From Cerrena zonata (Eukaryota; Basidiomycota; Agaricomycetes; Polyporales; Cerrenaceae), in assembly GCA_038087015.1 (NCBI GenBank), contig JASBNA010000065.1, positions 1 to 64,000 on the forward strand: DNA of 64,000 nt, written 5' to 3'. The stretch's first letter is position 1; each line of letters opens with the position of its first letter. The position numbers and the translations under genes were made by a program. Below are positions 6,650-59,379 of the stretch, one piece after another. Below the pieces are notes generated by a model that ran no database searches, had not been told where the DNA came from, and was given only the letters and a program-made list of their open reading frames with translations.

Positions 6650-6849
6650 TGAATTTGGATTCGGGAAGGATAAGATAAAAATGTGTCGAATTCTGGGAAA
6701 GGGACAGGATCAACTTGATCTTGGAATCGGAATCGGCATGTAGAATCCAACCCCACCAACAAGGCACGCCCATCCACGCCCGGTCCAAGATATTCTAGAC
6801 TTTTTGGCGCGACCAGGTGACCACTTGCATTATGCAATCTAATTTAGTC

Positions 6850-27328: not shown

Positions 27329-28826
27329 ATGAGTTCTATACAAGCATCTAAATTTAATACTCTCCAAAGTATTCAGATCCTCTCGTCTCTATCCGATGAT
27401 ATATCTTCATACTACACTCCTGAGCCAATCCCTGTTTGGCGACAACGTTCTGCTGACCCGAGACTGAACTCCAGAGTCATCCCCGAACTACTCGATGCTC
27501 TCATTTTCTTCCTTCGTACAAGCCCCAACGATGGCAAACTCTTTGCTATGACGCTAAGCATCAGTAGCTATGAGATGGTTGTTACGCTAGCTGCTAATAC
27601 CACTGCACACGCCGCTTGCTCAGATGCCCCGTCACCTCAAACAGTACTGGAGACCATCTGGAACTATATGGCCAAAATGGCAGCTACGGCAAGAGCTCAC
27701 GACGTGGAAGCAATCGAGGCAGGGCTATACGTACGATTTGCCGCGTATCTCCTTGACAGATACTCTGTAATCCTGCGCCACCGGTACGAAAAGCGGTGTA
27801 ATGAATACGAGAGGTTTCGGAAGGCATATCACGAGCTAGATATGACCTCCCTTCCGATTTCTGCTAGAGCCAAGGACCATCTTGAAAAGGTTCATGGAGT
27901 GTACACCGCTACCAAGACATTCTGTGAAGTACTGGCCAGCACTACGGGTCCAGTAGCAGAGAAGAGTGTCCAAGTGTTCACAGTGACCCTTATAGCTCTG
28001 TCTAAACATTTTGGGAAACCGAACATACTCCAAGAAGAGGAAATTACACTATTCCTCAAGGCAGCAGGTATTCAAGGTATGTCTCTGTGCCATCCATGTT
28101 TGCAACATAGTACTTACATTGATCAAAGATGTCAATTTTGATGTTGTCCATTATGCGAAAAAACTCTGCTCTCCCGTTGTGAATATAACGACGATCATGT
28201 CTATCTCCAGATCTCCCAAATTCAGAGACTATTTTAAACTGGCATTCCGAACCCACGTCATCGCCAATACAACTCCAACTCACATCGTCAACAAGCCAAT
28301 CCTCCCCGAAGGCTGGTATGACGAGGCTACAATCGCTGCCTTCATCCGCGAGGCACACACAACCCAAGGCTATCGAACGACTGGCATAGTTGAAGATGCC
28401 ATCACTGCGCTCGCTAGAGATGCCGCGCAGAATCTTCGTATGGGCGGACCGCGCGATATATCTCAGACCCACCCTGAGTGTTTGCTCATCCAATATCATC
28501 ACAATAACCCCCATATCGTTACACATCCCCACATCGCTGTCTCGAAGCCGTGTTGCTTCCAATGCAGCGTTTTCCTTGATGCATACAATGGGCATGTCGA
28601 GTTCTCTGACCACATGTTATTCTCAATCAAGGTCGGCAAGTGCGATTGTGCCTACCCATCATTCCTTCCGGACTTTGCAGAGGCTGATACTTCTCTTATC
28701 GACCATGCCATGAGATGTTCTATACATCGCATAGTCTGTGCCATCCTTGCTGACCGTATGCTTACAAGGTCCTCCGAGCCAAACCTGAAAGAACGGCTAA
28801 ATTGGTTTGGAGGATATAGTACTTAA
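27329..28826 (+). CDS. OTT_1508-type zinc-dependent deaminase family protein (about 481 aa)
   Basis: Two exons, 27329-28076 and 28129-28826, join in phase across a 52 nt intron (GTATGT..AAAG). Residues 1-250 are helical with no named domain. The C-terminal half carries the deaminase signature: HPECLLIQYHH near residue 364 (zinc-binding His plus catalytic Glu) and SKPCCFQCSVF near residue 390 (the CxxC zinc ligands). This spacing matches the OTT_1508-like deaminase family (Pfam PF14441), common in basidiomycetes and of unknown substrate; toxin-type or nucleic-acid deamination has been suggested for relatives. All zinc and catalytic residues are present and there is no lesion, so it is probably active. 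Confidence 0.72.
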
Positions 28827-33369: not shown

Positions 33370-34029
33370 AGCCGGCTATTCCAGTTTCGAGAAAGTGCCT
33401 TGTAGACGTTTCATTGCCTTTATGAACATAAAAAGAGCGTTGCGATTGTCGGCGTTTCTCAAAGTTTTTGTGGCGAGGATGTGTGAGGTGATAAGAGAGC
33501 GTCCTCGGAATCGGGCTCGTAGTCCTGAACGCAGGTGGCTGTACGACTTGCATCGGATTAGGAAGTGATCTACTGTCTCATTGGCATCGTTACAGGCGAG
33601 GCAGACGGGCGAGGGGGTTTTCTGGATACGGTAAAGGTGGCGATTTAGCGGGATGTGACCGGTGCGAAGCTGAAAGATAAGGCTGGATTTGTGCTTCCTG
33701 TTGGTCTTTGAGAGCTTAACGAATTTGGGAGAGGGAAGGGTGTGATCGTAGCCGGAAATGTGTCTGTATCTCGGCGATTTCTTCCACTCCTTCTTGGCAT
33801 TGATTTTCAGCTTCGTTACGATGTTCTATTTGGTCGATGATGCGCTGATTAGCAAAGGTTTGCCAAGGAAGGGTGGGAGCAGATGCGGGGGGCTGGACTC
33901 TCCTCTCGCTGCCTTTTTGCTTCAGTGTCTGCCGCCTCGTTGCCTTCGATGTCGTTGTGTCCTGGTGACCACTGGTAAATGCCTGTCTTTCCTTATGGCG
34001 GTCTTCACCTGAGCATGGATTTGGTCTAG
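33370..34029 (-). pseudogene. LINE ORF2 C-terminus: end of RNase H plus zinc domain
   Basis: LDQIHAQVKTAIRKDR (34028 downward) is the helix before the last RNase H strand, QWSPGHNDIEGNEAADTEA (about 33970) is the RNase H WxPGHxxxxGNExAD motif in a shifted frame, and LRTGHIPLNRHLYR, then CLACNDANETVDHFLIRC (about 33650-33550) are the standard tail of Tad-like elements. At least two frameshifts lie between them. The missing first part of RNase H is at 41053-41365, on the other side of the inserted transposon. Confidence 0.78.
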
Positions 34030-34425
34030 TACACCGCCAACTCGGTCAGACATCAGCGTCACGTCGGCCGCTTTGGTCCTATACAGGTAAGTGATTGTCT
34101 CAAACTCGGATTAGTCATACCTCAAGCAGTGCTTACCTGATGAGCTCCTGTTGATGTCGGTAGGACCTCCTTATGATCCTTTTCATTTTCTGAGTTGTAG
34201 CATACCCGTGATCTTTAAATTATCTACAATCCTTTCTAATCGTTAGCTCAATCCTCATGTCTTAGGTATGTTAATGAAACATATACTGTTTATATGAGTC
34301 CAACCTCGAAGGGTGGTAATCTGAGGAGGGTGTAAAGTCGTAAAGGCTGGTATGTATTATGACCGTAAATACTACAAGTAAAAGTACTTGAATGTATTGA
34401 CATCTGAGGCATTGTCATCGTGATC

Positions 34426-37400
34426 CTAGCTCCCCCCGCCGGGTCCTGGTACGCCTCCTTTTTCTGCTTGTTTCGCCGCCTTATTTCGAGCACGTGTTGC
34501 TGCAGCTCGTTCTGCAATTTCGCGACGTCTGATAGGACCCGAGACTTGAAGTTGAGCGGCGAATTGCTCATGCGCAGCTTCTCGATCTTCGAAGAGTGCA
34601 ACCGGTTTTGTCAGATGACGGGGAAGAGTGGATCGGAGTAGATGTGCGTTATGTAGAGCATGCATGTTTATGAAGAATTGTTGAAGGGGCTTGTGAACGA
34701 TAACCTCGCGTCTTCGAGTCGTCTCCTGGCGTTCCTGATTGGTATATTTTGTGTGTGTACCACATTGCGCGGAATGACAATCATGTTGAGCATTGAATAT
34801 AAATAAAATATTCTGTAATCATAATTTATTCATGAGTGGACGTCGCTACAGAACAAATTAATATAACCGTTACCTTAGGGTCTATGATTGAAATTGTTTC
34901 AGTGACATCGGAACTCAGTGGACGAGTGAGGAAAGGCATATTTAGTCGTACATCATTCTGATCGGACACAATGAACGTCTCGACGAGAACGATAGCACCC
35001 AGTGAATCACGGCTAGCTTCTGGTACAAGTATCCTTGAAATTCGGCCGGCATGGATAGAGCTTCCATCAACATCCTACATCACCATCATTTCCAAGTCAG
35101 CAAGGTGACAGATCGAAGCTGTCATTGAAGAACTGTACCTGAGGATCACAGAAGAAAACCCACGATCCCTCTTTGCAGATATCTTGGGAGCTCGAAATCA
35201 CAGACCTGCAACGCACCCACTTGTTGGCCACACCTGATAGGGACTTGTATTCGGGAAGTTCAATGGGGAGTCCAGCATCTTGAAGGTGAAAGTGCCATTC
35301 TTGTGCCACAGCAGACGCCTTCGGTACTCTTTTAATAGTTCCTACATCAAGCATCAGTCAACATTGACATCTGTGTGATTGTAAACAGCTGCCGTGAGTA
35401 GACACATACCTGGAACCAGAGGCACCTTTTCCACCCATCCAAGACGGCGTTGAAGCTCTCGGTGAGTGAGTATAAAGCTTCGTACCTCTTCTGATGCCTG
35501 TATATACTCTCCATCTACACTCTTCCACCATCCCCCACTCACTTGATGCTTGAATCTTTCAAGGTTCGCAATTGCTTCTGCAATGTCATGACTTGGTGCT
35601 TGGTGATTAGATAAGATACTACATAGTCGGAAGATAGCATTCCAACACTCAAAAATCTCGGTTGAGAACCCAGGAACTGGTCCATTATTACGCACGTCAC
35701 CAGGTGTGTGTGTGAGAATATGTAGTTTCCCCTTGTCCAAAATTCGCCGTGGATCGATTATTGCCCATGCATCAAGTACATTGTCAATCAATGTTTTCAA
35801 GTCGCTCTGACAGGGAGGTGAGTATTGCGCTATATATTTTTGTGACGCACTTACCAGATATTCATCTACATTTTCAATAGAACCATAATATAGAAGAGCC
35901 CCCAGCTCTCCAGCGGTCCGCCACAGACGTAAATGTGTCTCTGAAGCAAGCTCGCCGTGAAGATGGAAGACGCCTACTTGCTGCAGGGCTCGAAAATGCT
36001 TTCCGACAAGCGCGTTTTTATACCGGACCATGTACGTCCCACGTATAGGATACATGTTCAAGCCATCAACCGCAGATGACTCAAGGCGTGTGGCGAAGAG
36101 CTGTTGTTGCTTGTCGTTCCAGTCGGTATGTGTTTTATGCCACACATATTTCTCTCCGCCAAGTAACCATGTGTGGAGACTTTCCACAGGCGTATCACGA
36201 TGGACGTTATGATCTTGATAATGTAAGTGATGATTTGAAAGTCTTTTCAATACCTTCTAGTACTCACCATCATAACCCAGCAGAATATTGTAGTGGTCCC
36301 CTCGGCGAATTTCAGATCGTAAGGCTGAAGTATATGTGAGTTTTCGTTATCTACGATCAGTCTAGAAAGCAGTGCTTACGTGAATTGACAGGCAATGCAT
36401 TAAATCTTTCTGGCGGTTGTTGATACAGCCATGTTCGAAGTTCCTCAGCAATCTCATTCGATATTGCCGCCTTGACAGATGCACGATTCTCGCCTGTCAG
36501 AGTCTTTTCGTTGAGTCGAGGGTCCCGTGTTTCTGAGTTGGTTAGTCGCACAGCGTTCATCTCTTTTTTTCGCTGAATAATCTTTGCAATCCACCACTGG
36601 GCAATTGTGTCCTTTGTGCCTGTCGCAGTTTGTGAGGCTTTAACCGCGCTCTCTGTGCCTGTGAACGCGAGTTCATATTGGTGTTTAATTTCTTCAACTG
36701 TCTCTTCTACCGTTCGGGGTACTCCAGGCTTTTGGTACTATGTGAGTATTCTCTTCGCAACAATGGTAACATAAGATCACTTACTGCATACAATGATTTA
36801 TAGCCCTCTGTTGTCTCCGTCTGTAAAGCAGTTCCCCCTGCCTTGCATGTCCGGCATTTCAAATCGCCCTGAAGTCCAATCTGTGAAGTAAGTTCCGCCT
36901 GTTGTGGATTATCTCCTGCATCAACACGCGAGATTGCATGAAAAAGAATCTCTTCTTTCAGCAGACAATCATAAGCATTATGCCATTGTTCCATCCCAGT
37001 CTCCTTCTCCAAGACATCCAACTGTTCGAGTGCAGAGGCATGCGGAGACGTTGAGCAAAATCGAACGAAATACTCTTGCTGGAGTTTTTCGCGTGGCAAG
37101 CAAAGGTTCGCGAGGTAAACATTTGTATGCGCATTGTACTGCTTTGACTGATTTCCTGAAACGTCATCAGCCCACGTTAAAATATTCATCGTAAATGTTG
37201 CGCGTCCATTGGCTTTCTTGCGAATGGGATGTACGCCGTCATATAACCATTTCGTTTGTTCTATAGAAGTAAGTATTGATTTTACTCTGTGATATATGAA
37301 TTAAGTCATACCAGAGAATTGGAATTTGTGGCCTTCCCGATGAAGCTCAGGGAACGACTTTTTCAAGTCCTCTGTTCGGATTCGTGTCACGTTCACTTCA

Positions 37401-38883
37401 TCAAGGGAAGCCCTGCCAGTCTGCAATAAGCGTAGGTAAGCATTCATTACGAAGGGCTATGAAATAGACTACTTACAACATTGTCAATGGTGACACTCAG
37501 GATATCGACACACATTGTTTTTCTATCCCCTTCAACAACGCTAATCCACTTGATAGGTACCACAAAACGACCATCGCGAAGCTGGGCTATCTCTTTGATA
37601 TAGAAGTGCCGATATGGTGTCTTCTCAAAATCCGCCCACATTGGTTGTAAGCTATCAATATCTGCATCGTTCAGCCGTTCAGCCTGATAGAACTCAGACA
37701 ATGTGTCTGATATTTCTACATAGGGTTGTATATATGGCCGAACAAGGGGATTGGCCCAATCCTGCCAATAGATAAAGTTAGTGTCATTCTCGCACTCATC
37801 AGTTTAAAAATCACTTACTAAGCGAAATATGTGTGCAGGTCCGTTGGCGTAAAACTTGTTTCCCAATGACGATGTATGCTGCATGCTCTGAAGTCCAACT
37901 TCCTTCGTAAGCCGATCTTGTAACTTTCGTAATGCATTGAATGAGGGAACATCGGGTGTTCCACACTCTCGCATGACCCACATGATGAGTTTCAGATGGT
38001 CGTCGGATAGTCGAAGTCTTGGTAAACTGTCGAGAAGGTCAAGCATGAACATCTACCAGGTTGGATTGAGTAAGTTCTTAGTTTGTTGATTGTTTGATCT
38101 GGACTCACCGTCTTTGAGGTATATGGTGCCCATCGTGATGGCATGTTACTGTTACTGGCAGGAAGACACTCGTCATCATCATCGTCGCCGTCTTCAAACT
38201 CTAAGCAGATGTCAGTACCGCCTTCGTTCTATGTAAGTTTTGATTTACTCACCCAATCCTGCCTCGAGAGATGAAATAATGTTAGGGATACTCATATCAT
38301 CTTCCCTACACTCGTAATAATTCTCTAGATCTGCTGCCGTCTCTATTCTTCCTTCTAGAATGGATCGTTGATAGTGATCCAATGAGTGGAGTTGGTGAAG
38401 AATGTGAGTTCGTTCTTCTTGGGCTTCATTTGATTCGAAACCAGCTGAAAACGTCACTGGCTCCCAGTTCTCATCGCAAACCTGACCGTCCTCATCTATA
38501 TTCATCCGGGAAAGGGGGTCCTCAACATCATCATTCAAGATAATATTATGTGGTTGACTGGGAACAGACGGAAATGAAGGTTGTTGTAGATTTGCTGCAG
38601 ATGACTGAGATACAGGCTGTACAGGTGCAGGTGCGAGTCGGGCACGCTTGTTTTGATATGCTATAAATGCATCTTTATGCTTTGTGGTGTTCAGATGCCT
38701 GTCAATCCCTTTGCGGGAAACGTCCTGCGGATCGTGGCACTGTTCAGTGCATGCTCTACACCGAGCATGGGATTTGTCTCCGGGAATCTCATCAAAGTCT
38801 ATATGGTGATTATCAAACTCATATCTTGACTTAGTATAATTCTGACGTTTCTTACCTTCAGCCAGCAGCCGTTTGGGAGGCAT
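34426..38883 (-). CDS. Large putative transposase of the two-gene transposon (13 exons, about 1,262 aa)
   Basis: ATG 38883, TAG 34428-34426. Exons: 38883-38253, 38200-38109, 38052-37819, 37761-37477, 37420-37312, 37260-36785, 36737-36380, 36324-36268, 36213-35855, 35806-35410, 35341-35139, 35074-34874, 34812-34426. All phases fit and there is no stop. A further 57 nt in exon 1 (38853-38797) has donor, branch-like TACTAAG and AG and may also be spliced, keeping frame. N-terminus: BED-like finger (RCRACTEQC, then HLNTTKHKD). Middle: RLRLSDDHLKLIMWVMRECG, LTWADDVSGN, YFVRFCSTSPHASALEQL, CRTC. Then HRDTPVESLHTWLLGG, GGWWKS. C-terminus: FNAQHDC, MHALHNAHLLR, basic coiled tail. I recognise the layout from abundant agaricomycete proteins without a named domain; catalytic acidic residues are not assigned. 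Confidence 0.75.
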
Positions 38884-39063
38884 TATTGTTATTTTTTACC
38901 ATTCGATCTATCAAATCAAGCACTGCAGCATGGACGTCGGCGCGCCAACCCAAAGAAAGCGTGGTAATAATATTTCAACCCTTTATCCTGCAGGCTGCCA
39001 CGTCCCCAGTTGTTCTCTTCATTCGTTCTCTTTCTTATATTCTCTCTGATTCTGATATTTGTT
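38884..39063. promoter_or_regulatory. Bidirectional promoter region of the transposon genes
   Basis: 180 bp between two start codons facing away from each other must hold both promoters. An AT-rich core (GGTAATAATATTTCAAC near 38961) lies mid-way, and the plus-gene side is pyrimidine-rich up to its ATG, a usual basidiomycete transcription-start feature. No palindromic operator seen. Confidence 0.5.
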
Positions 39064-40475
39064 ATGGCTTTGTCTCTTGGAGAGTTTCTCCGGAGTGCAG
39101 GAGGCTCTGATTCTTCACAACCCTCGATTTCCACAACCTCATCTCGTGATGGTTCTCCTCAATTACCGGGCACGGCGGGTCCTTCAAGCTCCTCGCCTTC
39201 TCCAGGACAGCCGGAGACAAACCCAATCTCCCGCAGAAGGCAACGCGAAACAGATGACACCGATGACCTCCTCATGGTAGCTCCCCGCTTTGCAAAACGT
39301 CTCCACCTTACTCAGAAGGGCGAAAAACAGCTGGAGTTCTTTTGTAAAGTAATGGTTTTCTATTTTAAACTGTCTTATTTTGAACCTAACTTTTCCGAAG
39401 CTCTCTCCTGAGCAGCGGCAGGCATATGCGTTTGCACATGCTCTGCATCTCGAGGAGAAAATCAGCAAGATCCAACCAGTTGATGCGTTGTATACTCCGG
39501 AACCGAAATTACTTGTAAGTTCTATGTCTACTTCATCCGTGCTATTTCTAACAATATTATAAAGCACAAGATCGTCATTTATGCTCACCAGATCCTTCTC
39601 TGCCCTGCAATCTCAGGTTATCGTGCCGAGGCAACGAGGATGTTAATAGTAAGCTTCATTATAAAATTACCTCAGTGATTACAATTTGACTCTACCTTCT
39701 ATCAGGCGGTCATAGAAAGACATCCTGGTTGGGGATATACCAGCGAAATCAAGGAGGACAATCAAAAAGCGAAAATTGTCCTCACCGTGGTTCAGAACAC
39801 CCTCACACATGCTTGTTCCTCTATCAAAGGAGTCGTATGTACCATTCACTTTATATTATATTGGCTTACTGATATTGAAACATTTGTTACATTCAGCTGG
39901 GCAGGTCATTTGGCGATCCCGACCCAAATGAGCCGGAAAATGATCGACTGAGAGTTGGCTGCGCCGACATTGTTCAGCTCACGAGGGATTCTATCCGTAC
40001 ACTTGACACCAACCGTCTTGTCGTCAATAAGACTCGTGCTAACCTCGCGATGTGTACTCGTTTTGCCTTTTTGGTACGTCACGCACCTCGGAAGATTATG
40101 AGGCACTCTCTTACCATTACAATCCCATCTGTTATACAGCGACAAGAGTATCGCAAACCTGAAAACGAAAAAGATTTCTGGAAAGGAGTTGATAATGAGC
40201 TTGCTGCTCTTCGTAATAAATACAAGGCCGATCCCGAATCTCTCAACAAGTAAGTCAATATTTCTTGTTCGGTTTCAACATCAACTAATGTATCATTCTT
40301 TAGGTATTTCACAGATGTGTTGACAAAGGACGTGAAGATCTATGGCGATTCTCCCGACAGCGGGGAAGTCGTGGCAACAGAGAAGCATGATCAACAGCGT
40401 GAAGTCGAGGCGTTTGCGGAGAGAACTGAGAGTCAACTGACAAACCTCGGAAACGAGGATGGTGAAGATGACTGA
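39064..40475 (+). CDS. Second transposon protein, unknown function (7 exons, about 356 aa)
   Basis: Exons 39064-39348, 39401-39514, 39565-39648, 39706-39834, 39897-40073, 40140-40249, 40304-40475 join in phase with consensus borders and 50-66 nt introns and end in TGA. Residues 1-80 are Ser/Pro-rich with basic RRRQRE. The rest is predicted helical (QRQAYAFAHALHLEEKISKI, LRVGCADIVQLTRDSIRTL) with an acidic C-terminus. I recognise no domain. It lies inside the transposon, divergent from the large gene, and is undamaged, so it is probably needed for or helps mobility (partner protein, regulator or DNA-binding accessory); that role is inference. An ATG at 39010 in the same frame would add a hydrophobic N-terminus but lies too close to the other gene's upstream region to prefer. 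Confidence 0.72.
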
Positions 40476-41052
40476 CACACTGGTGTACTTCTACCTCCCC
40501 ACTCCAAGTCCCTCCTTTGTTTACTTACTCTCCCATTTAATTACTCGTACTTGTTAATGACACAGTAGCTATATTTGCAATTTCCGAATAATCATTACTA
40601 CCAGCCATTGTGCTACAAACGACATCTCCAAGTTGTGATTGAATGCTCAAATCAGGGAAATCGTTAACATGAACAGCATCTCTGCAAGATACTTATGAGA
40701 GGTGCATGCATGCGAGTATTGTGATCTCAACATTCAGGGTAGCAAAACATCATTCACCAATATTAATGAGAGCTCCGTCACTTGTCATAAATTGCCTCAA
40801 TGTATGATCCACGCTACATGTCTATGGCTACTGACATATATATCTACATCAATTTGCCTTCGCGTAGCTGTAGGGGAGGTCAGAGTGAGAGGAGCGAATC
40901 GGGTCAGCGGTATCTCAGAGATGCTGACCCCCAACCTATTGGCGCTTTCGAAGCTGGGAGACCTCCGCCGGAGCTATTTCTGAGGTCCGCGCGCTTCAAA
41001 ACGGTACTCTATCAAAGAGCCTTTAAACAGCTCTGTCCGGATTGGCGGTGTA

Positions 41053-41365
41053 GGTACTGTCCCGGGTGTGACTTCGTGTTGCGTAGCGCTCTGAGTGCTG
41101 CTTGGTTATCGAGAAAGAGGGAGATACGGTTGAGTTTGGGGATGCTCTTTGCCAAGTGAAGCCCGAGTGCAATTCCTACTACTTCCGCTTCATAGACTGT
41201 GTGCTCGTTGTCTGGCCCTAGGTGGTAACGAAGGGTTTTGAAGACTTCGTAGCCCTTGCCTAAACAAAGTTTGCGCCTTTCTACAACTGCCGTTGCGCCT
41301 ACTCCTCCGTCTACCAGGGAGCCGTCTGAGAAAAAACGGTATTCATCTCTGCACCGGTTTGCCAT
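41053..41365 (-). pseudogene. LINE RNase H domain, first part
   Basis: EYRFFSDGSLVDGGVGATAV (first catalytic Asp), TVYEAEVVGIALGLHLA (catalytic Glu) and LFLDNQAALRALRN (second Asp) are in order, followed by SHPGQYL, where the 7 kb transposon begins. With the part at 33370-34029 this makes one RNase H domain. Key residues are kept. Confidence 0.78.
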
Positions 41366-41438
41366 TTCCGTGGCTTTCTCCTTGCTGCGAGGTTTTGAAT
41401 GGGGGTTTCCAGACTGGTGTGAGGTTGCTTCTAGTTAC

Positions 41439-43205
41439 TTATATTTTTTCTATGTTTCTGGGAATGTCGTATACGTGGAAAATGTGGTGGAGGGGTGATG
41501 GGTGCCGTCTAACTATGCCGCGTGCTGCTCTTTGGATGTGTGGATAGAGGGGGTGGGAATGGGGTCTCGTCGCAAGTCGGACTGCCGAGGTGGCGATTAC
41601 TTTCTCTACTAGTATGTGGAATGGGAAGAGGTTATCATGTGCGTTCATAACATCTGTAGCCGTGGTTCTCATTGCTCCAACGATTTGTGATGTTACCTGG
41701 CGTTGGACCCTTGCTAGTTTCTTGACTATCGCTGGGAAGCGGATCTTGTAGTTGTGATCTTTTGTGCGTGAAACTATTGGGTGACAAAGGAAATCAGCTG
41801 CATATAACATACGCGGGATAGCAACTGAGAGGTAGAGTCGGCGAGCGCATATAGGGGGCATGCCAGTGGTCATATTTGAGAGACGTCGGAATTGATTTGC
41901 CCAATGTAAACCCTTGGCGAGAGCGAATTTTCCGTGTTCATGGAAGCGTAGCTCGTGGTCGATTTTGAGTCCGAGGAATTTGTTCTTGGGTTTTGGGGTA
42001 ATCTGGGCACCGCCTACCGTTGCGACTGGTCTGGGGAGTGGTCTGCTGCGCTTGATGCCGTCGGCATTTCCCTTTTCCGAGTGAAGTCTTGGATAGCTGA
42101 TTTGGAGACTTCGAAGATGCTGTTCCGCTTTCTTGCCTCTTGAAGGATCCCACCTGGTCTTGTCATGACGTCGTTGAGGTGTTGGTGACATTTTTCGAAA
42201 GTGTCTCCTACTAGGATACTCGTGTCATATACAAACAGAGTTGCGAACTCTTTTTTAGCTGGGATTAAAGTGCTGGGAATGAAAGCGTTTGAGAAACTAT
42301 GGAGGACGATGGAGGATGGGCATCCTTGGTCTAATCCACTGGTGATGGTGAGAGGTTCTGACTCGAAGTCGTCGAAACGCAGAGTGGTGGTACGACCGGT
42401 TAGTTTCCGTCTGATCCAGTCGGTGAGGGTCTTTGGGATTCCTTTCATTCTCATGTCGTGAATGAGGATTTCCGGTACCACGCTTGGGAAGGCTGACTTG
42501 ATGTCAAGGTATAGTACGGATACTAGTTTTCCTCGTCGCCATACGTCCTTGATACTAGTTATTAAGAGATGGAGGGCGTCAGTGGTTGATCGTCCCGGTC
42601 TGCCTCCTTACTGCTCCGTAGGTAGAAGGCCAAAACGTTCTGTCACGTCGACTGACGTGATTTCTGTGGCGCATGCCGCGCATGCTTTACCTAAGCCCTC
42701 ATGTAGAGATATGGATCTGTACGATTTTGCCGGGCGGTAGTCATCGCGGTTTGGTTTCCGTAGGACTATGGTTAGGAAATGTTTCCAATCTTCTGGGTAC
42801 CATTTCAGGTACTAGAATGTCGGCGACTTCTTGGTAAAGCCAATTAATGATTCCCGCAGGACCAGGTGCCTTTCTAGGTTTCATGCTGTCGATAACTTTG
42901 CGTATGAGCTCGTCTGTGATGGTTGGCATTCGAAGACTGGGTCAGGGTAGTCGTTAGGTAAGTCTGGCATGTTGACAGGTAGGGGAATAAAGAAGGCGCG
43001 TTGGAAGAGTTCGTTCTTGGCTGCATTGTCGGCGATGTTGGCGATGCTCCCTGGTGCATCTTCTTTCATCGTTGGGATCCTCGTCGAGTTTGGATCGCTG
43101 TTAGCTTTGTTTATGTAGAGGTTGTTAGCTTTCCAAACATTTCTTTCGCACGACCATTCTGTCATGTCATCCAACCAATCATACCAGCGCTGATCTTTCG
43201 ACTCC
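41439..43205 (-). pseudogene. LINE reverse transcriptase domain
   Basis: From the right: QRWYDWLDDMTEWSCER (before the RT), VIDSMKPRKAPGPAGI (42880), VPEILIHDMRMKGIPKTLTD and TSGLDQGCPSS (about 42430-42330, the conserved QGCPLSP-type block), FVYDTSILVGD at about 42230 where the active-site Y/F-x-DD should be, then the thumb region KNKFLGLKIDHELRFHEH and the connection to RNase H. The Asp pair is replaced by Tyr-Asp-Thr, so the enzyme is inactive. Frameshifts near 42740, 42480 and 42190 break it further. Confidence 0.72.
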
Positions 43206-43212
43206 TTAATCG

Positions 43213-44183
43213 TGGGGGTGGGCGAAGCCCGCCTCCAGTGCGTCGTGCTTAATAAGCACACAGCCACCATATTTCTGTTATCTTTCAATGCGGAAGGTGG
43301 CAATTCGAAGAAAATGGGAATTGTGTGGAAACAAGGTAATTAAACACAGTGGGTGCTAGGCCGGGATTGTAGTGTGGGTAGTCTATGTAGACATAAACCA
43401 ATGAATATGTCCAAATAGTCATTAGATGATCATAAATCTTCCATCTTGCTTCCTCCTCGGCCTCCCAACATTCATTGGAGGTATTATTTTGTGCTCCCTG
43501 CATAACCCATTGCAGCGATCGCTGCTTTGAATAAGTATATATTCATTTGGAGCTCTGAGACTCTGAATAGGAGCCTGCTCATGACATCTGTGAGTATTGT
43601 TCTCGTTGTATGCGCAGTTTGACTTCTTAGAATCAGTAAACTGACATTCTGTCACTGCTTTATGCTCTTCTATCCATTCCTCTGGCATCTCCGGTGTGTA
43701 ATGTATCCCAAACTGATCGTCAAATAATGAAGCTCTATGAGAAGTTGAATAACATTCAGATATGTACTCATTGAATCCCCCTGTCACATGCCTATAACGG
43801 GCTCATTACACATTTGTGACACCATTTGTCACTCATCTCAAGGCTATACTTGCGGTGCACCTTACTCTCTTCAGACACATTATTACGATAAACTAGAGGA
43901 ACAATAATCATCTATACTCACCATCTAAATTTCTATGGAAGGATTTCTTTTTGTTCTCACTTATAAGCCTACTTACAGGTGCTATCACAGTCATAAGGTT
44001 GAATTTTATTAAATCCTTCCATAGGAAGTTGCACTACACACAAATAAACAACGCTCTCTGCCAAAGTTTTCCCATTATTCCTAGAAAGTATGAGTTTCGT
44101 GCACCGCCGACTTTCTTTTGGAAACAAGTGGGAACGAACAAAGCCAAACACGACGCGCCGGAGGTGGGCTTCGCCCACCCCCA
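43213..44183. mobile_element. 971 bp MITE inserted in the LINE, with 7 bp target duplication
   Basis: Inverted ends TGGGGGTGGGCGAAGCCC extend about 37 bp. Perfect direct duplication TTAATCG lies at 43206-43212 and 44184-44190. Removing the element and one copy joins LTEAI to KESKDQRW in one LINE frame. Inside, 43933-44028 is a second hairpin (arms TATGGAAGGATTT / AAATCCTTCCATA). Small ORFs but no transposase. A 7-8 bp duplication suggests an hAT- or Mutator-like driver, unlike the TA-flanked elements around it. Confidence 0.85.
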
Positions 44184-44190
44184 TTAATCG

Positions 44191-45354
44191 CTTCAGTTAG
44201 CCTTTTCCCTATCTGCTTACTCTGTGGGACTCGTGTGATGGGTTCCACTTGTGTCTCTTCGACAGACGTTGGAGGCGTAAGTGCTCCTTTCGGAGGTTCG
44301 TAAGCTCTTTGGTCCACCATCGATTGCGAATTGGCATGGGCTTCGCCTTGGGTACGTGTTTTTCGACTATCTGTGCTATGTGGTCAGTAACACGCTTGTA
44401 CTCGCGTTTGATTTCTTCCAAAGTTTTGAACTCTTTTGGCGGGCCATTCTCCGTTAACCTTGCCTTAAGGTCGTTACGCAGCTCTAACCAATCTACCTCG
44501 GCATAGTTGTAGCCTGTTATGGGTGGTGAGGGGGCCGAGCGTAAGTCGAGTTCCGTGAGTATCGGACAGTGGTCAGTGCATTGGGGGGGGGGGGGGTGCG
44601 TTCTGGGTATACAGTGCACCATGTGAGCGTGAGTAAGAGTTCCTCGCTTCCAAACACATTGTCTGGTCTGGTCACGCTCTTGGTGTTTGAAGCTTGGAGG
44701 GTGGGGAGGTTGGGAGGTAGAAGCATGGTGAGACCTCGATTTGCTACAGCGCGGGTTAAGAGTTCAGCTTCGTCTAATTTGGCTTTAGTGAAGAGGTGGC
44801 TGTTTCTATCTTCGTCCCAGAGGGGCGAGTGGCGGTTGAAGTCACCTAGCCAGATGACATTGGTTGTCCAGTTATTGTCGTTTCTGGTGTTCTTAAGGCG
44901 ACGAGTGGCTAAGTCGAGTGTTCGGATAGCTTCCGAGTGTTTCTGGTCAAGGTAGATGCTGAAAACTGCTAAGCGAGTGTGAGTTTCTGGGAATGAAATG
45001 AGAATCGCTGTGATGTCGCTAGAGGGTACGTCAAGTTGTTCCCATGTGTTTGACGATAGTCTCTTGCTAACGAGTATGACGGATCTTGCTTTTGTGGTCT
45101 TCAATTTGTAGCCTGGGGTAGACTACATACCAGCACGAGCGGCTTCTTGTATTTGAGACTGAGTCCGAGTCCCAGTAGGGCTCTTGGATTGCGATGATAT
45201 CTGCGAAACTAGGGAATGTGGTATTCAAAAGAGTGTTAGTTGCATTGAGTGAGTTGTTCATGTTCTGCTGCCAAATGCGAAAAGAGTTACGGTCATGATA
45301 TGGTACAGAGGGGTTCGCGTGAGGTGGTTGTTCCTCTCGTTGAGAGTTGCTCAT
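44191..45354 (-). pseudogene. LINE endonuclease domain (EEP family)
   Basis: MSNSQREEQPP starts ORF2 at 45354. The endonuclease pieces follow: RIWQQNMNNSLNATN, ADIIAIQEPYWD (catalytic Glu), then in another frame VIWLGDFNRHSPLWDEDRN (catalytic Asp-x-Asn) and VTRPDNVF, then in a third frame CTDHCPILTELDL (the S/TDH motif). The last frame change sits on a run of 14 G at 44583-44596. This enzyme nicks target DNA for LINE insertion in intact relatives. Confidence 0.75.
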
Positions 45355-47414
45355 GTTGATGCTTGGAAGCGGGATCCTTCCACTAGCCCTTGCACTGCTG
45401 CTTCGGAGTCGTCTGCTTCTGGTTCAATGAGCGCGCCAGGTATCGTTTGACGTTGCTTTAGAAATATCTTGGGTAACGTCAACTGTTCTTCCACGTTGTC
45501 TTCGTCATCTCCTTCGAATGCTGAGTTACGGTTATTCTTCTTCTTGGTTATGGGTGTATGGGCTTTCCGCTGTTGCTGTTTGAGTTGCGGGCGCGGAGCT
45601 ACTGTCCCTAGTCCAGGGATGGGCGTCTTTGATGGGGTTTTCGAAGACGAAGGTCCTACGATGATGTCGATTTCATCCGAGGATGAAGGGAGTTCTAGGC
45701 GGGGTTTGGGAGGAAGCATGTTGGGAATATGATGGAAGTGTAGCCGGAGGGGGAAGATTGTCGTCATGGAAAGCGAAATCGAAGTCAAGAGTGTACCCGG
45801 GCTCCTTTGGAAGAGAGGTGGCGGGGGGAGAGGCTTGTCTTAAGGCTGAGATCTGCTCGCATGTGCTTGGGTGGGCAGGCGAGCATTGGATGGCTTGTCG
45901 TTGTATCTGACGTGAGTGACGGGATCTTCCGTCACGAAATAGACATACTCGCTGTCGGGGGCACTATCATTGAGCTTGGCGTTGTGTTCTAAAAACACGG
46001 GACAGTTTCTGTCAGTAGCTGGGTGACCAGGTTGGTCGTAGTTAGCGCAATGGAGGTGGGACTCGGCATGTGGACACTCCTTTGTGCCGTGGCGTTCTGC
46101 ACATCGTGCACAAACTTGGTGTGGGGAGGGGCAAGTCTTCGCAATGTGATTCATGCCGAGTTTCTGGCACTTGATGCACCGTTTGACTTCTTGCAGCAGC
46201 TTCTCGATTTGGATTTTCTTTCCTTCAACTATCCTCAGAGCATGCAATCAATCGCTACCGAAGCAGACTTATCACCCACAGCGATTACCAACACCAGATG
46301 TACAAAACCAACTGAGTACCGCTATCCTGAACAGAAACACGCTCACATGATTAGTTCTTTCACAGAACCTGAGTATGCTAACCACGCCATCAGCCTCGGT
46401 ATGATAGTTAGCGTCGGAAGTGGTGGGGACAAACTTTGCGATTGTTGGGAAAGTGTTTCCTCTTGCTCTGCCTTGACCCGGGAAGCGTCGTGTCCACTCT
46501 TTGAGGATTTCGGGTTGTTTCAGCCATTTGGCAGCTTCGACCGTCTGGAACTCGAATAGGAGTCCATTGTCGCGTGTGGAGCGGACGCTTGTGAATTTCA
46601 CTGATTCGGGGCCTGTGCTTCTCATGTCTTCTCTGATGTAACTGATGGCTGAGTTTGCTTGTTCGACTAGTTCTTTCTCCGACTTGTTCGCATTCTCGTT
46701 CGTGTTTTGGTCGACGTAGATCTGTCTCTGTCTAAGAAGAGTTCTAGCAATCAGTGTGGAAGCTGCGCTGGCAGCTTGAGCATAGGTCTGAATGCTCGGA
46801 TTGAACGTGAGGTGTGGATCGTCTACGCGAGGGTGAGTCCCTATGTTTACGTCGATCTCATGGGTAGGGTGTGGGGGAGGTACACGCTATAGCTCTTTCA
46901 TCGCGGTTTTCAGTTCATGTGTTGCAGCCTTGAGCTGCTTCATATGTTCTGTGACCTTCGTCTATAGCTTGTTATCGATCCTTTCGTCAATGAGGTCTGC
47001 GACGTTTGTGCTCAAGTATTCCAAGATGGAGTCGGCTTCTTGGTTTATAACGGTTTCTTCGAGTATAACTACTACTGACCTTAGGTTGTTGGCGAGTACG
47101 ACCGTAACATTTTGTTAACTAGTGATGTGTATCAGGGCGTCGCAGAGATGACGGGCTGTGATTGGGTTCGCCCCATATGGGATTAGCTGCTTAGATTCGA
47201 GGAGGCGTACGGCGGAATCGTATTCAGCATTCGTATTGTTCGTTAAAGTTGCGTTGTCTGCGGTATTAGCTTCATTAGTAATCGGAGTATTGTTACCTCT
47301 AGTGTTACGAGCTGTTCTTGTTGCTGGGTCCGGCGTCTGTTGACGTGGCGGGATTGATGCTGAGGATGCCCTTTGGGCGATGTTCTTCCTAGCCTTTATG
47401 GCTGGAGTGCTCAT
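45351..47414 (-). pseudogene. LINE ORF1 (CCHC zinc-knuckle RNA-binding protein)
   Basis: ATG 47414 (MSTPAIKARKN). After a Thr/Asn-rich N-terminus and a broken middle (frame changes between about 47115 and 46250), the zinc knuckles read KRCIKCQKLGMNHIAKTC, CARCAERHGTKEC and HCANYDQPGHPATDRNC. The C-terminal 145 codons follow. Its TGA stop (45353-45351) overlaps the ATG of ORF2 (45354-45352) as ATGA, the arrangement used for termination-coupled re-initiation in several LINEs. Confidence 0.7.
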
Positions 47415-47479: not shown

Positions 47480-48240
47480 AGATTAAAGTAAGAGTCCTAT
47501 TGCCAGTTCCAGTGGTTGAATACCGTGGGAAGAAGGGCAGGTGGTGATGGTCGAAAGCAAAGAAGCCCTCGACATTGTTATGATCCAACCTGTTATACTT
47601 ACTGTTATTGAAATGGTTTTGAAGGGCTTATATACACATTCAACACCTATGGTGATAACAAAAGGCCGTTTCTGAGCAAGGAGATTTATCCAATTCCGAA
47701 TAAAGTTAACCTCATTCATGTACTCATTGGTTTGAAAATAATTGATCAAGTGAAATATGCATGTAGGTCCATCGGCATAAAATCTGTCCCCCGATGACAA
47801 TGTATGCTTGAAGTGCGACTTCCTTGGTAAGCATATCTTGTAACTTTCACAATGCGTTGAATGAGGGAACATTGGGTGTCCCACACTCTCGCATGACCCA
47901 GATGACGAGCTTCAGGTGGTCATCAGATAATCGAAGGCTTGGTGAACTGTCGAGAAAGTCAAGCATGGGTATCTACTAGGTTAGATTAGAGCGACTTCCT
48001 AGCTTGTTGATTGTTTGATCTGAACTTACTGTCTTTGAGGTATATGGTGCCCATTGTGATGGCGTATTACCATTACTGACAGGAAGACACTCGTCTTCCT
48101 CGTTCTCGCCATCTTCGAACTCTGAGGAGAAGTCAGTACTGTCGTTGTTCCATGTAAGTTTTCATTCATTCATTCAACCTTGCCTCGAGGCATGAAATAA
48201 TGCTAGCCATACTCATAATCATCTTCCCTGCGTCCCAGTT
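47480..48240 (-). pseudogene. Decayed copy of the 34.4-38.9 kb transposase (exons 1-4 region)
   Basis: The nucleotide sequence follows 37.5-38.25 kb in the same strand and order with many point changes. Examples: GAATGAGGGAACATTGGGTG (47861) against GAATGAGGGAACATCGGGTG (37943); GGTATATGGTGCCCAT (48038 against 38119); and GGAAGACACTCGTC (48081 against 38161). No long open frame remains. It ends beside the 5' end of the LINE. Confidence 0.8.
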
Positions 48241-51520: not shown

Positions 51521-54500
51521 ACTTTAAGATAGACCTCTGGCCATCCACATCACGTGCGCGCTTCCTGTCACGCTTACATCAGTTTGAGTGAGAGGTGTAT
51601 AGCGGAAAGACTACTCCTCTTTCCTCACCAAACATTCGAAAATTTTAAAACCATCAAGTTAGAGAGAATTAATTTTGTGAATTTTTGATGGTTTCCGATT
51701 CTTTCTAAAGTTTGTCGGTCTGAATCCTTAGTCTTTGCATGTTGTGGATGTAGGCTTCAATGCTGTGTCGATCAAAATATTGCTAATTATCAAATATATT
51801 AAATCTCTATGCATCTGCGACATGAATAAGTAATGCAGACTGTCTTCTTTACTAAAGGTAATGCCCCGTCCTAAACGTAGGGCACAAGTTGCCATAGAAA
51901 ACTTGGGAGGGCATGCACGGAAAAAAGTTCGTGCTGTAGTAGGTGCGCTGCATCTGTCAACGGTGTGTACGCACCATAAACACAGGTCAAGAATGCACTC
52001 ATGATATATTTCATTAGCCCTCAGAGGAAGCTACTGAGTCTGAGAACTTCCCAAGAACACCGCGAAGTATTCGGAAACACATTCAGCGTGTTTTCGGACA
52101 AATAGCACAGCCAACATGGCCGGGAGATGATGTTGTCCTATCAGAAGAACACGAAGACTCGCATCTTGATGAACTCCCCTCTTTCGGACAGGCTCTTTCC
52201 CAAGCTGGAATCATGATGCCTCCGGTCACATTGTCACCATCTGCCAGTGATCCAACAGAATGTGTCGCACGGAGTGACGGTTGTGGGAGCGATGGAAGGG
52301 ACGATGTGGCTTTCGAAGTCATGGCAGCTGAGGGGGACGAAGATGCTGGAGGAGGTGGAGTGGATGGAGAGGACTATGGTGAGGATGATGAAGAGGAAGA
52401 CGAGGACGAGGATGAGGATGGTGAGGGAGCCATGGTGGTGCTGGAAAATAATGTTACTGAGCCGAATAATTCAAATATTCGCCATTCCGATTCGTTCTCC
52501 AGCAAGTTTGATGCCGCGCCTGAGATCGACGTTGCAAAGGCTGCGCTCAAGGATCTTGATCGGATTTTGCAGCCAACACGGAAGAGTGGGGCTCGACAAC
52601 GACATACACCATTTGTGGGCGGGGATGTTTTGCAGCGCCGTTTGATGGAGATGTCCCTATTTCTTTATCACTACACATCTCCTAGGACAGAGTACTACGG
52701 AAAATCGATTAGCTCATCTCTAAAAGCTAGTTCAGACTGGCGGAAGGGTGTCACTCACGGAAAATCACTTCGAAATTGGACTCGTGCATTTATTGCAGAC
52801 CGGCATTGTCTACCACACCCACCTAGTACCGCACGATGGAGCAAGTCACCTATGAACAGCCCAGAACTGAAGGATGACATCGAAGCTCATCTCATCAGTG
52901 TGGGTAAATATGTTCGTGCTATGGATATTGTGGAGTTTATGCGGAATCCGAGCATCCAGCAGAAGTACGGACTGACCAAAACTATCGGCCTGTCAACTGC
53001 TCAGAGATGGATGTCTGTATTTGATTACCGACGGGGAAAGTCACCTACTGGGCAGTTTGTGGATGGACATGAGCGGGCGGATATTGTGGGTTATCGTCAA
53101 ATCGGTTTCTTGCCCCGGATGGCAACAAACAATGCACGCCTGCGAAAATGGCATGAAAAAACATGGGAAGAGGTACCGGAGCCGGAGCCTCAGCCACATA
53201 ATCGAAAGGTGGTTTATTGGTACCACGATGAATCCACATTCTACGCAAATGATCGTCGCAAGGTGCGCTGGGTACGAAATGGAGAAAAAGCGCGGCCTCA
53301 ACCGAAAGGTGAAGGCCCATCACTGATGGTCGCGGATTTTGTCTCGGCTGATTATGGCTGGCTACGATCTCCTGATGGTGAAGAATCCGCTCGAGTTTAT
53401 TTCCAGGCTGGAGCAAGAAAGGATGGATATTTTACGTACGATGATGTGTTGGAGCAGACAACCCGGGCAATGGAGATTGTGTCGAAGTACTATCCCGGCG
53501 ATGAGCACATTTTTGTGTTTGATAATGCTCCTTCACACACCAAACGTGCCTCCGATGCACTCTCCGCCCGTCGTATGTCGAAAAAGCCAACGCGCGAAGG
53601 TCAACCTATTTTTGGTGTCGATGTTCCAGTTACCGAAAACGGACAGTGTGTTTATGATCGACAGGGGAATATAGTGAAGGAGCGGGTGCCTATGCGAGAT
53701 GGTCGGTTCAAGGATGGTAGCCCGCAGTCATTCTACTTCCCACCTGGGCATGCACAAGCCGGGATTTTCAAAGGGATGGCAGTGATCTTGGAGGAAAGGG
53801 GTTACCGCAACACAAAAAAATTGAGGGCACAATGCGAGAAATTTAATTGCCCACCTTGGGACCCTACAAAACCATGCTGCTGTCGTCGACTTCTCTATAA
53901 CGAGCCAGACTTTGCAGAGGTGGAAACATTACTCGAGGCACATTGCAAAGCTCACGGGTTTGAAGTGATTTACTTACCAAAGTACTACTGCGAATTGAAC
54001 CCGATTGAGCAATGTTGGGGCGCAGCGAAGCGCGAGTATCGCAAATATCCACCCTCCTCACTTGAGGCTGATTTGGAGAAAAACGTTGCGATGGCTTTAG
54101 ACACGGTCAAGACGATACATATCCGGAAGTTAGTCACGGTGTTGGAATGTTCTCATCAGATTAGCCCCACTAACCCCTCTATTGTACAGATTTTGCTCAC
54201 GCTCGCGTCGTTTTATGGATGCCTATCGACATGGTCTCACGGGAAAACAAGCAGCTTGGGCAAGCAAGAAATACCGTGGTCATCGTGTTCTCCCTAATAC
54301 CATTCTAGACGAGCTTTCAAGGGCAGGTATCTCAGCAGATTGACTCTTTCTTCCCCCTATTCTATCCTATAGTGTCTAGCAGTTATAATATTCACTTAAC
54401 ACCCTCTTATTGTAGTACATAGGACCCTAGTATAATTTTCAACGCTTTTCTGTAATTTCTCTCCATTGGCGCCATGGAACTATTCAAAACAAGATCATCA

Positions 54501-55131: not shown

Positions 55132-55230
55132 CATGCTCTTGTAGCTGAGCGAGGAGCTCCTCAGCTAGAAGTAGAAGCTGGGCTTCATAACGAGGTCAGT
55201 ACTTCAGGTTTACTCGAAAAGAGATAAGTA

Positions 55231-55892
55231 CAGTGTAGGACGGGTCCTTTACACGCCCAAATTTCCTATGTCATTTCCTGGGGCTGGGGGTTACTTCTAC
55301 CAAAATAGGTTTAATATGTATTATGCGAGGTTTGAGAATAAATGGAGGTGCCAAACCTGTGTAACTCACATTTCAGTAGTTTTGCCCGTGTAATAGGTCC
55401 TTTACACGGTCACATCACGCCTTATGGGAGTCAATAATTACTATATTTAGTAATAATATGATCCTTGCTCTCTACAGATTGCCTGTTACAGTGTGAGTTT
55501 CTGTGACTTACTGTGACTCAGATGAGCGTACATTGCTCTTCTCGAACCACCGGTTAGAACATGGGAAAAGGAGACACAGGCTAATCTCACAATAAATTAC
55601 TTACTGTTATTAAGAGTCACTTGGAAAAGTCTGCCATGAGCATCCGAGGACACAACAGCTTGTTTCAATTGGTTCCCGGGGCAAAATGAAATTTCGCTTT
55701 CACATTTTAGACATATGTTTTTCACCTCGGATGGCAACAACTGCACTGAAAACTCTGAAACTGCAGAAGATGAAGAATCTATATGGTTGCTTTACATAGG
55801 CTACAAGCTTGTGGCCAGAAGCCAAATTCTACGGGACTTTTCATTGAGGTGTGTAAAGGAGTAGTGCCGTGTAAAGGACCCGTCCTACACTG
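55231..55892. mobile_element. 662 bp MITE in a Plavaka intron (copy A)
   Basis: Inverted ends CAGTGTAGGACGGGTCCTTT flanked by TA (55229-55230, 55893-55894). It lies between donor GTCAGT (55195) and acceptor GCTCAG (55923), so the exons are untouched. Related in ends and size to 57666-58335. Confidence 0.8.
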
Positions 55893-57665
55893 TACTCACT
55901 ATATATGTGCACAAATTGCTCAGGATTTCCATCGCGAAGATGTCCTAGTAGACAAATTTCCAGCGGGCGAGGATGCTCCTGTGGGTGATGATGCTCCAAT
56001 CGAGGTCATTCTCTGCGGGGACGGCATTGTAAGGCGAGTGTTCCCTCGCTTCTTGGTTTATTCTGCAGATTACCCAGAAAAGTAAGTAACTTCTATTGTT
56101 CTACCTTCGTTTAACACATTGAAAATATTATTCTCAGATGCCTAGTAGCATGTATAAGACAACTAGCCTGTTGTCCCTGTATGCGCTGCTATTGCGAGAA
56201 GTGCAAAATTCCGTCTATCGGTCTTAAGTGCGATATGAGAGGCAGGGTGATGAACATCAGGGTGGACACTCCTGCCCTGCATCGTCTTATCGAAGCTACA
56301 CGAGGCTTGATCTTTGAAAAGGGAATAAGGGTTCGTTCTGCACGTATTAAAAGGATGCTTGACCGAAACTCCTTGCTGCCTATAAGGGTATGTTCCCTCA
56401 TTATTCACATTTGCCCTCCTGTTTGACTTACAGAAATTACAGAGTGCCTTTTCGATCCGTCTCGCAGAACATGGCTTCAACCATTATGCTATATCTCCCC
56501 CTGATTTTATGCACAAGTTTGAATTGGGTGTTCGGAAGGCTATTTTCGTTCATTTGCTGCGCCTGATGGTACATTAGGCGCAGACTCTATTCAAGATTTT
56601 AACCACAGGTATGTCGAACGAAATTGATCGAACATTAGCTATTATTTATGTGCTTTTTGCAAGATTTCGAAAAGTTGCAACATTCGGCTGCGACATTATA
56701 AGGCGTTTTCAGGTTAATGTCTCATCCCAGAGACGCATCTGTGCGAGAGACTATGAAGATCTCTTGCAGGTATGTATTTTCAGTCTCATTCTTCTTATTC
56801 TTTCTCATATATTTCACAGTGCATTATCCCTGTCATCGAAGGAATTTTCCCTAAACGCGATAACAAAATCGTTTTTGACCTCCTCTACACCCTTGCAGAG
56901 TGGCACAGTTATGCCAAGCTCCGTTTACACACCGAGTCCACTGTTGAAGATTTCGAATCGGTCACCAAACGCCTCTGACCTCATTCGCAAATTCAAGAAG
57001 ACCGTCTGCAAGCGATATGTTACCAAAGAACTGCCTCGCGAGATCAATGCTCGCGGTCGTCGTACCGCTCGGTTGGCTGCTCAGGTGAAGGCTCCTCAGG
57101 CGCGTCGTGCTACGAGCGCAAGGGAACGTAATGTCGAGTTTAATACGAGCACTTACAAGATGTATGCCCTACCCGACTATCCGCTTTAGGTGCGTGCCCT
57201 CGGGACGACTGACAATTATACAACTCAAAGGGTATATTTTTACTATTGTAATGTTTCCCTTCGACAAGACTTACAAGGTTAGTTTTGATTTTAGGGCGAG
57301 CACGAACATAAACGTCCGAAAGGCTTTTATGTTCGAACTTCGTAGTGCAAATCGCGAAACACGAACGACTTCAACGGCTCCCTAAACGAATTGGGGATCG
57401 CCCGCGAGGAGTACAACTCATACAAGAGTCCGTTTCGCGAAAACGACAGAAAATCACGCATGCAAGTCGCGGTGCCAACTCGACAACCCTGAAGGTTGCT
57501 TTTACAGAGGCAGAGCCCCTGTCACACCCGGTGATCCAAGACCCTTATCACATATCAAGAGATCAACGGTTACATGTCGATCTCACTGCTCTTGTGACAA
57601 GTAATCGCAAGGATCCCGTATTCAAAGTTTTTTTCGCCTAACTTCACCACACTAAATTGCTGATA

Positions 57666-58335: not shown

Positions 58336-59097
58336 TATTTATTCAATTCTAGGACTTTTACTACAACGTTGAGGGACACATCTTGTCGAGGCTCATGGAC
58401 CGCGAATACGATGGGGCCGAACATGATTTTACTCTGAGCGAGAGAGGCTCTCTTCGAATCCAAAATAATCGCCTATACAGGCACAAGGTGCTACGAACTC
58501 ATTTTACTACATACGACATGCGACGGTCTACCGACTCCATCAATCCCCGAGTCCCCGACCACGTGAATATTATTGCACAAGGAACTGGAAGGAAGTTCTG
58601 GTACGCCCGAATTATTGGCGTATTCCATGTCAACGCCCGGCTCGCATCAGAGGAAGATTTCGAGAGGCTAGACATCCTATGAGTGCGATGGTATGGCGAA
58701 GACACCACATGGGCATGTGGTCCAACCGCTATGCGGCTGCCTCGTATGGGATTTATTCCGCACACAGAGCACGCAGCGTTTGGATTCATTGATCCTAGAG
58801 ATGTCATCCGTGCTGCACACATAATCCCTACCTTTGCTCATGATCGCACCGAGTTCTACTTGCCTGGTTCTCAAGCTGCTCGAGCAGCATGCGAGAATGA
58901 TGAGGACTGGACATACTACAGGTGCTTGCTAGACCACTCCCAAACTTGGTGATATTTTTCTTTTTTGCACTTTGTCTTCAGTATTGTGGGCTATATACAG
59001 TCCCTTTCACCCCCAAATTTTACACATCCTCTGAAGATATTATTTACTACATATCTACAAAAAGAAGTAGGTCAAACGGCGCATTCTACATACTGTA

Positions 59098-59157
59098 CAC
59101 CGCCAACCTGGTCAGACATCAGCGTCACGTCGGCCGCTTTTGTCCTATAGAGGCAAG
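59098..59157. repeat. Lone terminus of the 34.0-41.0 kb transposon family
   Basis: Starts TA-CACCGCCAACCTGGTCAGA and follows the left end of the 7 kb transposon (34032-34091) for about 60 bp with few changes (shared CATCAGCGTCACGTCGGCC). Similarity stops after GTCCTATA. No opposite end is found before 64000. Confidence 0.8.
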
Positions 59158-59379
59158 TAGACATCACGCGAAAACGACTAAGTCCGAAGCGCCTTGCGGG
59201 CGCTAGGACCCTCACGCCAAAATCGCGACCAGCCCGCTCGCAAGCTCGCGCCTTTCCAAACTCCGAAAACCCAAAAAGGAAGGCGGGCCTGGCTTGCGAG
59301 TGGGATGGTTTTACGAGCCTAGGCCAACAACAGCGCTTCTTGAAGCTTGATCTTCACCATCGCAGCGAACCAGTCAACA

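Follow-up and report, generated by a model that had tools for sequence, protein, structure and literature searches.

The contig JASBNA010000065.1 of the wood-rotting basidiomycete Cerrena zonata (assembly GCA_038087015.1) carries, at positions 34032..41050 of the 64,000-nucleotide stretch analysed here (positions 1 to 64,000, forward strand; the window), a complete DNA transposon of the cut-and-paste type, probably autonomous and very probably of the CMCT (CACTA-Mirage-Chapaev-Transib/RAG1) clade, within an agaricomycete lineage with TA target-site duplications near or sister to ESTA. This assignment builds on the element's ends and TA duplication, on its other copies and the empty sites, and on a pair of intact genes and a DDE (Asp-Asp-Glu) signature with C2C and H3H motifs, to which structure prediction adds a RAG1-like core and a BAH-like domain. 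An initial annotation, made from the letters of the window, had proposed a complete two-gene transposon inside a long interspersed nuclear element (LINE), and this has stood: both genes could be rebuilt free of stop codons, and further copies as well as empty sites were found.

Ends, target-site duplication and copies

The element is delimited by the following features:

34032..41050, no strand: transposon, 7,019 bp, CACCGCC..GGCGGTG (second copy at C37 and empty sites)
34030..34031, no strand: left target-site duplication TA (TA at 5/5 complete copies; empty paralogous sites with one TA)
41051..41052, no strand: right target-site duplication TA (flanks of copies and empty sites)
34032..34050, + strand: left terminal inverted repeat (start identical in five complete copies)
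41032..41050, - strand: right terminal inverted repeat (inverted-match comparison of the ends)

The end repeat is weak by itself: the inverted arms (34030-34050 and 41032-41052, 21 nt with the TA) are complementary at 18 of 21 positions, the first 11 perfectly, and the pair ranks only second among the 22 inverted matches listed in a 7.3-kb region. Certainty therefore comes from other copies, for which the 55.5-Mb C. zonata assembly was searched (171 contigs, to which the C-numbers refer). The first 101 bp of the element match five genomic places and the last 153 bp likewise five, the window counted. In 55.5 Mb the end pattern TACACCGCCAAYYYK is matched 16 times and its reversed control once. 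Ten of these 16 matches form the end pairs of five complete copies, all five with TA outside both ends and with otherwise unrelated flanks; the borders given in the initial annotation are thus common to other copies, and the refuting condition that it had set does not apply. Searching with the element ends returned a second full-length copy with TA duplications (C37:392344-415710), whose three pieces, separated by two nested insertions (about 0.7 and 15.6 kb), are 99.0-99.9% identical to the window element (99.5% overall). Three shorter copies (two on C11, one on C41) have a length of 1,519 bp, both TA included, except that a nested insert lengthens one of the three; they are 99.3-99.6% identical to one another.

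The extent of the duplication follows from the empty sites. The target of the C37 copy has an empty paralogue at C41:367949-368189, which is 235/241 identical and aligns gap-free. Five paralogues exist for the LINE target in the window; four of them carry CTAGTAGG, with one TA at the site, each lacking part of the left flank away from it, while the fifth (76% identical) is gap-free across the site, yet without TA there. Since empty sites hold a single TA, the duplication is TA and the element 7,019 bp long; of the flanks first suggested, TA or TAG, only the former holds, the latter being ruled out by the empty paralogous sites. The restored LINE reading frame, put forward as an independent criterion for the borders, had to be dropped as sole proof: the right join gives an open frame of 163 aa, and the join shifted by one base opens a longer one of 232 aa, so that the frame alone cannot fix the border and the empty sites decide.

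The host LINE itself (about 33500-47400, - strand) shows RNase H, reverse-transcriptase and zinc-knuckle regions by eye and is interrupted near 43.2-44.2 kb; its frame at the insertion point is, again by eye, an RNase H-like stretch. One LINE fragment searched against Pfam gave no match.

Traces of related copies also lie within the window:

59096..59158, + strand: isolated left end from a related copy, 92% across 63 bp (genome match; one of the six remaining TACACCGCCAAYYYK matches)
47700..48229, + strand: decayed piece from a related copy, 81% to the large gene between the end of exon 1 and the end of exon 3 (genome match)

Two more of the six remaining matches belong to the ends of a 2.7-kb element present at both C9 and C144, and those at C2, C15 and C43 had no convincing partner end within 9.9 kb each in an exact 7-base scan. 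The 2.7-kb element, with ends TACACCGCCAGCCC..GGGTTGGCGGTGTA (L019 6768-9469, L021 3149-5850), is 100% identical at C9 and C144, its flank being equal as far as read, and judging by this identity it is probably a duplicated segment. Diverged relatives at C26 and C1 are 31-45% identical, and the one at C26, of another subclade, retains the H(3)H..E block; among the diverged relatives, those at C12, C26 and C1 showed no convincing repeats at their ends. Degenerate relatives (L024 2818-7000, L025) have DDTSGNSSKKWNKHN where others have DDVSGNQSKQYNAHT, which marks a second subclade of the same superfamily. An insert of about 710 bp with ends CACTGGATCGTAGCCCAAAT..ATTTGGGCTATGATCCAGTG is nested in two family copies (L011 2553-3264 on C37, L016 on C11) and looks like a CACTG-ended nonautonomous element. 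The 15.6-kb insertion in the C37 copy (L011 4351 to L013 873), with a 5-bp overlap, is perhaps a long terminal repeat retrotransposon, to go by its size and duplication.

The large protein and its predicted fold

Conservation was counted in two alignments, A1 (45 sequences) and A2 (74 sequences). The large gene and its features are:

34426..38883, - strand: large gene, 13 exons, 1,262 aa, predicted RAG1-like DDE transposase (splicing rebuilt; 523 homologous proteins; homologue fold)
Exons, - strand: 38883-38253, 38200-38109, 38052-37819, 37761-37477, 37420-37312, 37260-36785, 36737-36380, 36324-36268, 36213-35855, 35806-35410, 35341-35139, 35074-34874, 34812-34426
38749..38760, - strand: N-terminal CxxC (C42, C45) followed by HL..TKH, zinc-finger-like (sequence reading; cysteines in 10/10 of those rows, of 45, that extend there)
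37166..37168, - strand: probable first catalytic Asp, D482 (45/45 in A1, 72/74 in A2; end of first core strand in the model)
36968..36970, - strand: probable second catalytic Asp, D548 (42/44 in A1, 71/73 in A2, rows with the residue; end of fourth core strand)
36845..36856, - strand: C(2)C motif, C586-C589 (C586 in 45/45; at position 589, of 45 sequences 19 have C, 25 have D and 1 has G)
35708..35722, - strand: H(3)H motif, H896 and H900 (each 44/44 in A1, rows with the residue; 73 and 72 of 73 in A2)
35657..35659, - strand: probable catalytic Glu, E917 (45/45 in A1, 74/74 in A2; E920 equally invariant)
34666..35413, - strand: BAH-like domain, about residues 999-1183, with conserved H/C set H1144, C1146, C1151, H1174 (predicted fold)

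Both genes were rebuilt independently and proved stop-free, with GT-AG borders at 18 of 18 introns (47-68 bp); the rebuild returned exactly the 13 exons and 1,262 codons as well as the 7 exons and 356 codons that had been read initially. Among 7,992 candidates scored, 523 database proteins match the large protein; the best 120 of these come, by name, from mushrooms and their relatives, and nearly all are termed 'hypothetical', 'uncharacterized' or 'predicted'. The extra 650 residues of one homologue, P0001, were considered as a counterpart of the small gene and rejected, as they read as an F-box-like gene-model fusion.

The large protein of this family is predicted to have a RAG1-like, RNase-H-type DDE core; a core of that type, which the initial annotation had envisaged, is supported by the predicted fold of a relative. 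Foldseek comparison of this homologue model with RAG1 gave significant E-values and low TM (template modelling) scores. The triad was assigned from conservation and the strands of the model, not by superposition on RAG1. Residue E529, invariant in 45/45, was rejected as catalytic: it lies in a helix after the third core strand, which makes D548 the better fit for the second Asp.

The C-terminus is predicted to form a BAH-like domain. The modelled fold of about residues 999-1183 resembles the BAH domains of ZMET2, BAHCC1, DNMT1, TNRC18 and ORC1, from which it differs in having no Pfam BAH match and in its conserved H-C-C-H set. The C-terminal 265 aa retrieved no listed Pfam family (the filters of HMMER remove the majority of matches above E 0.1). 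BAH domains feature an aromatic cage for methyl-lysine, and such a cage was not evident by eye in the BAH-like region. A passage of one paper mentions BAH domains for DNA methyltransferases (PMC13297926).

Probable placement in the CMCT clade

Members of the CMCT clade have D, D and E, the last two of which enclose C(2)C and H(3-4)H, and most lineages have CA..TG ends and duplications of 2-5 bp (PMC12730594). The window element has D482, D548, C586xxC589, H896xxxH900 and E917, all conserved in the family except C589, together with CACC..GGTG ends and a TA duplication.

A number of observations pull the other way. The second cysteine of C2C is replaced by D in 25 of the 45 sequences, and the first Asp by N in 2 of 74. 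Neither element protein has a match in Pfam, single members of the large-protein family yield only scattered noise-level matches, and the family profile found nothing among PDB sequences at E <= 10, RAG chains included; the links to RAG1 and BAH hence rest on predicted fold. What was modelled is a homologue, identical to the window protein itself at 512 of 977 aligned residues. Its Foldseek TM-scores to RAG1 are 0.13-0.27 by query, over gapped alignments with root-mean-square deviations (rmsd) of 12-27 Å (best 16 rows); VIA rmsd values are 4.5-5.7 Å at 9-12% identity, and the HzTransib match has an rmsd of 8.0. The ends of the shorter copies resemble those of the window element at only 77% over 121 bp (left) and 70-71% over about 190-220 bp (right), for which reason we place them in a sister subfamily, and a full-length partner of that subfamily was not found in the genome search. 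Being near-identical at unrelated sites, these copies show recent movement in trans, though of the sister subfamily. Finally, profile-profile comparison of the large-protein family with the Transposase_21 and Plavaka proteins of the same genome was not significant, whereas those two profiles do find each other (probability 90.9). For Transposase_21, 10 of 12 matches were fetched and 8 open frames used, two under 200 aa being dropped; for Plavaka, 10 of 147 were fetched and 9 used, one being dropped.

A subterminal repeat array is a trait of EnSpm/CACTA elements, which further have a 3-bp duplication and the PF02992 domain. The window element shares with them its CAC..GTG ends and the motifs of the clade and has none of these three traits: its duplication is 2 bp, none of the 12 genomic Transposase_21 (PF02992) matches falls within it, and exact 9- and 7-mer repeats in the terminal 394 and 575 bp numbered 6 and 4 against shuffled means of 5.2 and 3.0, counts matched or exceeded in 197 and 179 of 500 shuffles (exact repeats only). 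Its best Transposase_21 profile score was no better than the reversed control (23.0 vs 23.2); the local profile matches to the genome's Transposase_21 proteins, not significant either, are collinear at their NLP, C2C and H-LG motifs, which is suggestive only. Although ends of this kind have been described as EnSpm-consistent (PMC12730594), we regard a CACTA/EnSpm element in the strict sense as very improbable; the CACTA affinity first proposed survives at the level of the CMCT clade.

Plavaka elements, which are abundant in the C. zonata genome, resemble the window element in their H(3)H..E arrangement and share its 2-bp duplication; short matches to the genome's Plavaka proteins (KLH...H...FG....TE.xE and LH.L..G..K) and a best profile score exceeding the reversed control (21.5 vs 17.0) point in the same direction. 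Their ends are TGT..ACA or CATCA..TGATG as opposed to CACC..GGTG here, none of the 147 profile matches listed for the genome (PF18759) lies in the window element, and the hhalign comparison was not significant, so the element can hardly be a Plavaka. Given the missing Pfam matches of both proteins, KDZ was set aside together with Plavaka and strict EnSpm (no search was aimed at KDZ).

With Transib, ProtoRAG and RAG1, the last being the enzyme by which the human immune system rearranges antibody genes, the large protein shares the predicted fold of the catalytic half and the D-D-C2C-H-H-E order. Transib and RAG make 5-bp duplications as compared with 2 bp here, where a BAH-like C-terminus is predicted in addition.

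The closest description is that of ESTA (Kojima 2025, December 2025), a lineage with TA duplications, RAG1 similarity by HHpred, and C2C and H(3-4)H motifs (PMC12730594). TA duplication, RAG1 similarity (here of the predicted homologue fold), CMCT motifs and a basidiomycete host are common to both. That the window element is a plain agaricomycete ESTA member as already defined, with nothing structurally new, seems to us only slightly less probable than the contrary: the ESTA traits and the CA..TG ends usual in CMCT lineages are all present, and ESTA sequences without TET exist (PMC12730594, Data S1). On the other side, the three TET-positive ESTA families are given in a section on rusts and their kin, and the main text does not contain the word BAH (PMC12730594); no statement was found that ESTA has the partner gene seen here. 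Those TET-positive families carry a TET/JBP gene, whereas here, comparing by description only, we find a partner gene without a Pfam match and a BAH-like C-terminus. The initial wording, 'apparently undescribed', is accordingly not fully upheld, ESTA sharing TA duplications and RAG1 similarity; our preferred placement, near or sister to ESTA, concerns a branch of transposons that is barely described so far. A literature search on the family, on BAH domains in transposases and on C. zonata transposons (mostly non-subscription papers, by title and start of abstract, Repbase excluded) found only PMC12730594 to be near.

The small gene

Upstream of the large gene, and read in the opposite direction, lies the second gene:

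38884..39063, no strand: gap between the back-to-back start codons, 180 bp, presumed bidirectional promoter (gene models)
39064..40475, + strand: small gene, 7 exons, 356 aa, conserved accessory protein (putative role; splicing rebuilt; relatives P0122, P0123)
Exons, + strand: 39064-39348, 39401-39514, 39565-39648, 39706-39834, 39897-40073, 40140-40249, 40304-40475

Searching with the window protein returned only P0121, from the second copy; adding a remnant at C62 to the query gave two more relatives, P0122, which is the gene at C62, and P0123 from Cytidiella melzeri, matching at 31% across 91% of the query with E 2e-24. The C62 relative is 36% identical, and its readable exons 4-7 have boundaries matching those of the window gene, the last being uncertain (our own reading and the database protein differ). 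The element end TACACCGCCAACTCC lies 532 bp beyond the small-gene stop at C62, compared with 575 bp in the window element. P0123 and the large-gene relative P0023 are both on contigs of 53,390 bp, a suggestive agreement in length. The structure model of P0123, helical nearly throughout, was unusable (predicted local distance difference test score, pLDDT, of 41), and no fold search was based on it.

These data also bear on whether the small gene is captured host cargo, standing outside the transposition machinery. Its lack of a known Pfam domain, the unusable model of its relative, its not being seen in 19 kb of sequence surrounding the diverged relative at C12 and the finding of only three database relatives, two of them from the C. 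zonata genome, would all fit such an origin. We nevertheless consider it unlikely, given that the gene is found again, 36% identical, next to the same end at C62, with the matching exon boundaries just described, and has a relative in another genus.

Possible mechanism and significance

The large protein would bind the terminal repeats, through its N-terminal zinc-finger-like motif and the region before the core, pair them and cut with the DDE triad; insertion at TA with a 2-bp stagger, followed by repair, would yield the TA duplication. The BAH-like domain may anchor the complex on nucleosomes or influence where it inserts. The product of the small divergent gene could be an accessory, a part that second proteins play in several transposon groups. 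It is conceivable, though we lean somewhat towards the opposite, that the family represents a distinct large agaricomycete RAG1-type branch, in which a transposase with an acquired BAH chromatin reader and a dedicated second protein couples the choice of target, or the evasion of silencing, to the state of histones or nucleosomes.

The locus supplies a family with defined ends, duplication, empty sites and a partner gene, which allows its annotation as a transposon, and it broadens the group that gave rise to vertebrate RAG1. Vertebrate RAG couples to histone reading through the PHD finger of RAG2. If the BAH reading were true, the present protein would be a natural RAG1-like recombinase physically joined to a histone reader.

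Other features in the window

Further open frames in the window include PIF1-like helicase and DUF6570 matches at 1150-2574 (- strand) and 5822-6709 (- strand), which read as Helitron-like; a frame at 27996-28826 (+ strand) that matches an OTT_1508-like deaminase along 43 residues (E 9e-8); and a 759-aa frame at 52018-54297 (+ strand) with a DDE_3 match, another transposase. Two elements of about 670 bp (55229-55894 and 57664-58337) have inverted ends TACAGTGTAGGACGGGTCC..GGACCCGTCCTACACTGTA and end stretches 82-84% alike from one element to the other, and form another CA..TG nonautonomous family, possibly TA-duplicating.

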